Source: a bacterium
GTDB lineage: Bacteria > Hydrothermota > Tepidihabitantia > SM23-42 > JAOAFX01
Assembly (NCBI GenBank): GCA_036382775.1
Contig: DASVHD010000012.1
Location: 1-64,000 of the forward strand
Direction of reading: 5' to 3'
Length of the DNA: 64,000 bases
Shown in pieces: positions 23,265 through 24,526 of this stretch (position 1 is the first letter of the stretch; every line of letters begins with the position of its first letter). The notes under the pieces are model-generated. The model searched no databases. It was not told the DNA's origin and saw only the letters and a program-made list of their open reading frames with translations. The translations under genes and the position numbers were made by a program.

Positions 23265-23317
23265 GTCATTCCATGCTTGACACGGAATCCATGGATTCCC
23301 GCCTCCGCGGGAATGAC
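23265..23317. repeat. Palindromic intergenic repeat with GTCATTC ends
   Basis: Begins GTCATTCC and ends GGAATGAC, with inner GGAATCCATGGATTCC and CCCGCCTCCGCGGG palindromes. This type of repeat is scattered in many bacterial genomes. It lies between convergent genes and may help end both transcripts. Confidence 0.6.
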
Positions 23318-23365: not shown

Positions 23366-24526
23366 TTAAATAATTAGCATCGAATCACCATAAGAAAGAA
23401 AACGATACTTGTTCTTCACCGCTTCCTTGTATGCCTTGAAGATCAGCTCTTTACCGGCAAAGGCGCAGACCAATAAAAGCGGCGTGGAACAGGGCAGGTG
23501 AAAATTGGTGATGAGATGGTCAATAACCTGGAACCGGTGCCCGGGAAAGATGAACAGGTCGGTAAAACCGGAAAATGCAGCTACTGCTTTATCCCTGCAG
23601 TTGTCGCCGAAGCCACGGTTTGCGTAGGGCAAACCTTCAGGTTTGCATTCAATTTGGTTGCCCTTTTTATCAGCAAGGCTAAAGCCCCGCTGCGCGGGAT
23701 CATGACCTTGCCCTACATTCCCCCTTTTGGATAAGAGGATATCAGGGGGATTTGATAAAATTGACTCCAACGTGCGTGTGACCGAGGTCCCGACCCCGAT
23801 CACTCTCCTGGCAGCGTTGATCGCGTCCGCTGTTTCCTGAGATATTTCCGCGTATTCGGCGTCCATGACATGCCGCTCGATATCTTGAGTCCGGATCGGC
23901 TTGAACGTCCCGGGTCCGATATGCAGGGTCAACTGGCAGATCTTCGTGCCTTTTTTCTCGATCTCTTTAAGGATCTCTTTCGTAAAATGCAACCCGGCCG
24001 TGGGCGCAGCGATCGAACCTTGGGGATCCGCGTACACGGTCTGGTAGGTCTGCTCATCCTGCGGCACGGTATGGCGCCGGATATAATGCGGCAGAGGGAC
24101 GATGCCGTATTTCTTAATCATCTCCATAGCTGGCGCGTTAAACTCGACCACGCACCTTCCGGGCATTTTGTTAACGACAATGGCAAAGCTTTTATCATCG
24201 AAAAAGATCTTGGTGCCGATCTTGAGCCGTTTACTGCTGTGAACAAGAACTTCCCAATTCCCTTTTTCAATTTCGCGCACCAGGAGCATTTCCACGTTCC
24301 CACCAGTCTCCTTTTTTCCCTTCAGGCGCGCCTTGAAAACCCTGGTATTGTTCAGAACCAGGACATCTCCGGGTTCGAAGAATTCAGCGATCTCGGAGAA
24401 ATGCCGGTGCCGGACCTCACCGGACTTTCGGTCGAGCACCAGCAGCCTTGACTGATCCCGCTTATCCAGCGGGTACTGGGCGATAAGTTCCGGTGGCAGT
24501 TCGTAAAAAAAATCCTGAAGTTTCAT
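23366..24526 (-). CDS. queA: S-adenosylmethionine:tRNA ribosyltransferase-isomerase (queuosine synthesis)
   Basis: 386 residues from the ATG at 24526, the start that matches the family N-terminus (MKLQDFFYELPPELIAQYP); a GTG six bases upstream is the alternative. It adds the epoxycyclopentane ring to preQ1 in tRNA using SAM. Conserved blocks: RDQSRLLVLDR, GDVLVLNNTRVFKARL, GSIAAPTAGLHFT, LHIGPGTFKPI, GVGTSVTRTLES, TDLFIFPGHRF and ITNFHLPCSTPLLLV. Between LES and TDLFIFPG there are about 66 residues where about 16 are usual. The extra stretch is encoded by palindromic repeat DNA (23582-23752) kept in frame. All core motifs remain. Confidence 0.95.
   Translation of the reverse strand: MKLQDFFYELPPELIAQYPLDKRDQSRLLVLDRKSGEVRHRHFSEIAEFFEPGDVLVLNNTRVFKARLKGKKETGGNVEMLLVREIEKGNWEVLVHSSKRLKIGTKIFFDDKSFAIVVNKMPGRCVVEFNAPAMEMIKKYGIVPLPHYIRRHTVPQDEQTYQTVYADPQGSIAAPTAGLHFTKEILKEIEKKGTKICQLTLHIGPGTFKPIRTQDIERHVMDAEYAEISQETADAINAARRVIGVGTSVTRTLESILSNPPDILLSKRGNVGQGHDPAQRGFSLADKKGNQIECKPEGLPYANRGFGDNCRDKAVAAFSGFTDLFIFPGHRFQVIDHLITNFHLPCSTPLLLVCAFAGKELIFKAYKEAVKNKYRFLSYGDSMLII
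23582..23752 (-). repeat. In-frame palindromic element inserted in queA
   Basis: Encodes about 57 residues from NPPDILLSKR to CRDKAVA in a non-conserved loop. The DNA is built of nested palindromes: terminal GTAGGGCAA (23624-23632) and TTGCCCTAC (23708-23716), hairpin GCAAACC/GGTTTGC (23629-23646), CCCGC/GCGGG (23686-23698), and a second module bounded by CCCCC (23720-23724) and GGGGG (23745-23749). It resembles the protein-coding palindromic elements known from Rickettsia. Confidence 0.75.

Follow-up and report, generated by a model that had tools for sequence, protein, structure and literature searches.

The queA gene of the DNA analysed here (a stretch of 64,000 nucleotides, hereafter the window) carries a long additional segment in its reading frame. 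Very probably, this segment is a translated inverted pair of GTAG-tagged REPs, a REPIN-like dimer, together with a second palindromic repeat, inserted into the gene and tolerated there. The positions of the features are given in Table 1.

Table 1. Features of the queA locus (positions in the window) and sorting-type-domain proteins carrying a REP
Feature	Position	Strand	Description
queA ORF	23366..24526	-	386 aa from ATG at 24526; tRNA preQ1(34) S-adenosylmethionine ribosyltransferase-isomerase
Repeat-derived insert	23624..23752	-	129 nt = 43 codons, residues N259-Y301: NPPDILLSKRGN VGQGHDPAQRGFSLA DKKGNQIE CKPEGLPY
Module C	23719..23752	-	AATCCCCCT...AAAAGGGGGA, CCCCC/GGGGG hairpin; separate dispersed repeat family
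Module A	23673..23716	-	44-nt GTAG-tagged REP, GTAGGGCAAGGTCATGATCCCGC..GCGGGGCTTTAGCCTTGC; 19 genomic copies
Spacer between REPs A and B	23647..23672	-	26 nt; in other copies e.g. 8, 26 or 31 nt
Module B	23624..23646	-	inverted 23-nt GTAG-tagged REP, GCAAACCTGAAGGTTTGCCCTAC
queA linker 3' of insert, probably ancestral	23576..23623	-	ANRGFGDNCRDKAVAA; from alignment, with a presumed exact boundary
Six sorting-type-domain proteins	C49:23558, C35:319914, C50:9586, C49:3558, C30:68106, C5:58217		in-frame REP; domain C-terminal

The ORF translation gives queA as a single intact frame. Its product scores 427 bits against the NCBIfam model (cut-off, 324 bits), with family matches on both sides of a gap. 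Likewise, the structures PDB 1vky, 1yy3 and 1wdi align only before and after the insert (residues below about 260 and above about 316), the middle being skipped. In a protein search, a QueA match was found in 39 of 40 relatives, and residues ~261-309 were matched in none of these 39. Alignment with 31 relatives showed that the linker from LE to FSG, whose length varies within the aligned set, comprises 63 residues in the window QueA as compared to 15 in three same-family genomes. The corresponding 48 or so extra residues are absent from all 31. A first-pass annotation had reported about 50 residues in excess of the family norm, in a QueA whose frame and motifs survive, and both observations are borne out. 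With the closest relatives sharing only about 56% protein identity, neither a target-site change nor an empty site at the nucleotide level can be defined for queA.

A 48-residue insertion into a conserved enzyme could mean that QueA has been or is being inactivated, the ORF being a young pseudogene that is still in frame. This is very improbable, since there is neither stop nor frameshift, the segment following the insert is 71-80% identical to that of same-family relatives, the invariant motifs are intact and the insertion site is a linker of variable length. QueA would presumably have remained active. A misjoin caused by repeats was also considered, the assembly being a draft of 51 contigs and repeats being typical misjoin points. 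However, the same queA gene continues in frame on both flanks, the composite spans just 129 nt, and the same repeats occur in-frame in nine other ORFs, so that we regard such an artefact as extremely improbable. An intein was set aside, as the segment has a length of 48 residues and is built of dispersed repeats.

The insert can be broken down entirely into modules C, A, the spacer and B, plus two bases joining C to A. These modules account for 43 of the 48 additional residues, about five more lying outside any assigned repeat. The DNA is palindromic, as first noted: GTAGGGCAA and TTGCCCTAC pair at 9 of 9 positions, and the RNA folding energy is -56.1 kcal/mol as compared to -44.2 ± 3.9 kcal/mol for shuffled sequences (z = -3.0). 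An unpaired GTAG tag is present on both hairpins, A and B. The element had been placed at 23582-23752 by the first-pass annotation. Its part from 23624 to 23752 is indeed repeat-derived, whereas 23582-23623 is largely queA linker with counterparts in relatives; in the same-family relatives, the alignment places ..SKNKDGKKRVMP opposite the linker listed in Table 1. Similarly, the CCCCC/GGGGG module described as the second part of this element is present, but it belongs to a separate repeat family. What the annotation left as a palindromic element can now be given a more precise identity, the data supporting a GTAG-tagged REP anatomy for A and B in inverted, REPIN-type pairing. An Rfam scan around the queA locus gave no match. 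Directly 3' of the queA stop, at 23295-23314, lies an ATTCCC-N8-GGGAAT palindrome that is dRS3-like and resembles CGTC-type repeats. A single match of this kind in the window is reached by 31 of 100 shuffles and is therefore not unusual by chance; the wider sequence around it looks like a dispersed repeat.

To count copies, covariance-model and pattern searches of the genome were combined with inspection of fetched loci. BLAST with a 161-nt query gave 45 matches, most of them covering A and B separately. The covariance model of module A found 19 copies at E ~1e-5 or better (best E, 3e-17), plus short forms. The model of module B gave 41 matches at E<=0.02, including backward-read short forms of A and members of a 22-nt sub-family, GTAGCCGCA. 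After merging the A- and B-model matches, about 34 genomic places with GTAGGGCAA-type repeats remain, inside and outside genes. Neither of the two observations named by the first-pass annotation as refuting its reading (all near relatives having these residues in non-palindromic DNA, or a lack of further copies) was thus made. The C pattern made 33 strand-hits, corresponding to about 18 places, and its reversed control made none; the numbers of A copies and C hits are well above chance. Elsewhere in the 64-kb window, no further copies were found beyond chance. The modules occur as singlets, as inverted A-then-B pairs and as everted pairs, with variable spacers. The REPIN layout, two inverted REPs separated by a short spacer, was recognised in queA and at seven other loci (L002, L006, L016, L017, L018, L021 and L028).

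Of 15 aligned A copies, 14 have GTAG (or GCAG) as their 5' end and one has GTAA, in each case outside the stem. In hairpin A, 98.5% of the cells are paired and compensatory changes affect 4 of 13 pairs, a value reached by 0 of 500 shuffles. The covariation events are nevertheless few, since most compensatory changes come from the GTAGCCGCAGG..CCTGCG variant. With the module A model, no match was obtained among 146 further genomes of this phylum (E<=1e-5), and one weak match, in genome G003, was obtained among 40 relatives. Therefore, the A family has expanded in this lineage.

Among the GTAGGGCAA-type places, about 24 of 34 lie outside long ORFs, so that the family is predominantly extragenic; the other ten (~29%) are in-frame inside ORFs of at least 390 codons. 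These ten are in queA, in six sorting-domain genes, in two paralogous exported proteins (L012 and L140) and in a kinase-type gene (L020). L011, L019, L128 and similar ORFs were rejected as hosts because they were judged spurious or antisense. All ten copies share one frame and one direction and encode, with slight differences, VGQGHDPAQRGFSLA or VGQGFSLA and/or KPEGLPY. In part, the sequence itself imposes this uniformity, since each strand of A has a single frame without stops (two of six). In L012 and L140, the insert directly follows the likely signal peptide, with a long A in one protein and a short A at the same site in the other, so that the inner hairpin may have been gained or lost. 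L020, on contig C20 near 16891, is a chain-length/polysaccharide-type kinase with GNVR and AAA_31 matches. Here, another repeat-like segment (HRGGGKRRGGDTKNDH) lies ahead of the in-frame REP A, and the two form a composite like that of queA. In addition, a DnaE-like polymerase (L147, genome G000, contig C32 near 28492) contains a CCCTCTCCC-type segment and a GTAGCCGCA REP in-frame (SPLTLPSPAKGEDKDVAAPFRV). Within the PHP domain, this REP occupies a variable loop; its reading strand is opposite to that of the other copies (VAAPFRV).

The genome has about 100 detectable sorting-type domains, and Por_Secre_tail/FlgD_ig matches were obtained for both of the two REP-carrying proteins tested. In 30 fetched loci, we examined the loop that precedes (I/L)KIFDAAGRLVK. 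The loop is without insert in, for instance, L151, L155, L157, L160 and L166, and is filled by a REP in L150, L153, L154, L161, L164 and L167, by a C-type repeat in L163 and by a CCCTCTCCC-type segment in L168, L175 and L178. For one pair of filled and empty sites, L150 and L151, 176 of 222 aligned bases are identical (79%). Shared insertions may be the origin of several of the sorting-domain copies. The non-REP repeats of L163, L168, L175 and L178 encode peptides such as NPPLSPFTKGG and SPPPLPSPLEGEDKGG at the position held by the REP in paralogues. Simple repeats, for instance AACCATTTAACCATTCAACC (NHLTIQPFN) or CTACCTACTACCTACTCC, also code for a second loop of the sorting domains (L150-L179), which in some cases contains a CCGCCAA..TTTGGCGG palindrome. 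A limited literature search, itself weak evidence of absence, returned nothing on repeats in sorting domains.

An AlphaFold model of QueA, built from an 11-sequence alignment, has a mean pLDDT of 79.8. Residues 260-311 are below 50 and the rest is mostly above 75, so that the insert is predicted to form a disordered loop between helix 247-258 and strand 318-322, beside a well-predicted core.

These observations bear on whether the repeat might be domesticated at the protein level, the peptide VGQGHDPAQRGFSLA..KPEGLPY being useful as a loop and selection holding one frame across proteins. The common frame and direction of 10 of 10 GTAGGGCAA-type intragenic copies would fit such a use, as would the six copies sharing one sorting-domain loop and the long and short versions retained at one site in the L012 and L140 paralogues. 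However, the choice of frame is constrained by the sequence itself, and neither the sorting-domain copies nor those of L012/L140 count as independent, which leaves about four independent events. Moreover, the same sorting loop accepts unrelated repeats, the dnaE-like copy uses the opposite strand, and the QueA loop is predicted to be disordered. Overall, we consider domestication improbable. Also unlikely is the broader idea that several unrelated palindromic families serve in this lineage as routine sources of protein loops. They would build up in-frame, mostly in one direction, in a sorting-domain loop of secreted proteins that tolerates them, and would also reach housekeeping enzymes such as QueA and a DnaE-like polymerase, with selection for coding compatibility.

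In the preferred reading, the palindromic repeats would have been inserted into the linker of queA as non-autonomous selfish DNA. For copying, an IS200-like transposase (Y1, RAYT-type) would recognise the single-stranded hairpin and act at the GTAG tag. Copies disrupting genes would be lost, while intergenic copies and those in flexible loops with an open frame would persist. The insert would be tolerated in queA because its length is divisible by three, the frame used is free of stops and it lies in a flexible linker as a predicted unstructured loop; it would be neutral.

For GTAG REPs and REPINs, mobilisation by Y1 (RAYT) transposases has been proposed (PMC3733652, PMC3116915), and the genome contains nine Y1_Tnp matches, which would fit such a route. 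However, no GTAGGGCAA repeats were found within ~1.5 kb on each side of these nine loci, some of which are near contig ends. Thus, a cognate RAYT flanked by the same REP was not found for the GTAGGGCAA family among these loci. One Y1 transposase, L062 (C41:89290-90105), is flanked by GTAG-tagged hairpins and REP pairs of GTAGCGTCC type and, judging from sequence, likely has heterodisulfide-reductase-type genes as neighbours. Searching with one of the flanking repeats gave six occurrences, only on contig C41 and all within ~15 kb. L062 and these REPs apparently form a REPtron. As its REPs are of a sequence different from GTAGGGCAA, L062 was rejected as the cognate RAYT of the family. The absence of GTAGGGCAA repeats near the Y1 loci counts against the preferred reading, as does an intragenic share far above that of P. 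fluorescens SBW25, where 14 of 1,067 REP 16-mers overlap genes (Bertels and Rainey 2011, PMC3116915).

Intragenic GTAG-tagged REPs have been described in, among others, dnaE, dnaE2 and tRNA pseudouridine synthase genes, with clusters encoding 43-82 residues (Di Nocera et al. 2013, PMC3733652). The present repeats share with them an unpaired GTAG at one end, a hairpin stem (A, 44 nt and B, 23 nt, within the 20-60 nt of that class), dispersal as singlets and dimers, and some in-frame copies, including dnaE-type and tRNA-modification genes. They differ from them by the ~29% intragenic share, the fusion to an unrelated CCCCC/GGGGG repeat and the lack of a cognate RAYT among the loci found. The main text of PMC3733652 contains no GTAGGGC.. 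repeat, queA or sorting domains. As in REPINs (PMC3116915), two inverted REPs with a short spacer form one long hairpin in a genome with Y1 transposases. In contrast to REPINs, the two REPs of queA are unequal (A is long with an inner hairpin, B is short), many copies are singlets and no link to a RAYT was found; classic REPINs are, besides, nearly all extragenic (PMC3116915).

The first-pass annotation had cited Rickettsia palindromic elements (RPEs) as the precedent, and this comparison fits the behaviour of the repeats. RPEs are described as palindromic repeats of ~100-150 nt found in-frame in unrelated Rickettsia genes (Ogata et al. 2000, reviewed in PMC10969869). As far as that description goes, the likeness in behaviour lies in in-frame copies in unrelated genes (queA, sorting-domain, kinase-like, exported paralogues and dnaE-like) that add tens of residues while the motifs of the protein family are kept. 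The host lineage is another one, and the queA insert, unlike RPEs so described, is built of GTAG-tagged REPs and a CCCCC module. The GTAGGGCAA repeats are therefore a new family of an already known in-frame palindromic kind, with GTAG REPs and RPEs as precedents. Its unusual traits are a large proportion of intragenic copies, an insert in which two repeat families are fused, and a hotspot in sorting domains.

The case is a clear and densely documented addition to the few genomes in which mobile palindromes write segments into working proteins, with filled and empty paralogous sites available within one genome. It bears on the question of whether REP elements are truly extragenic. Finally, repeat-encoded segments in the QueA, DnaE-like and sorting-domain proteins of such genomes can mislead homology searches.
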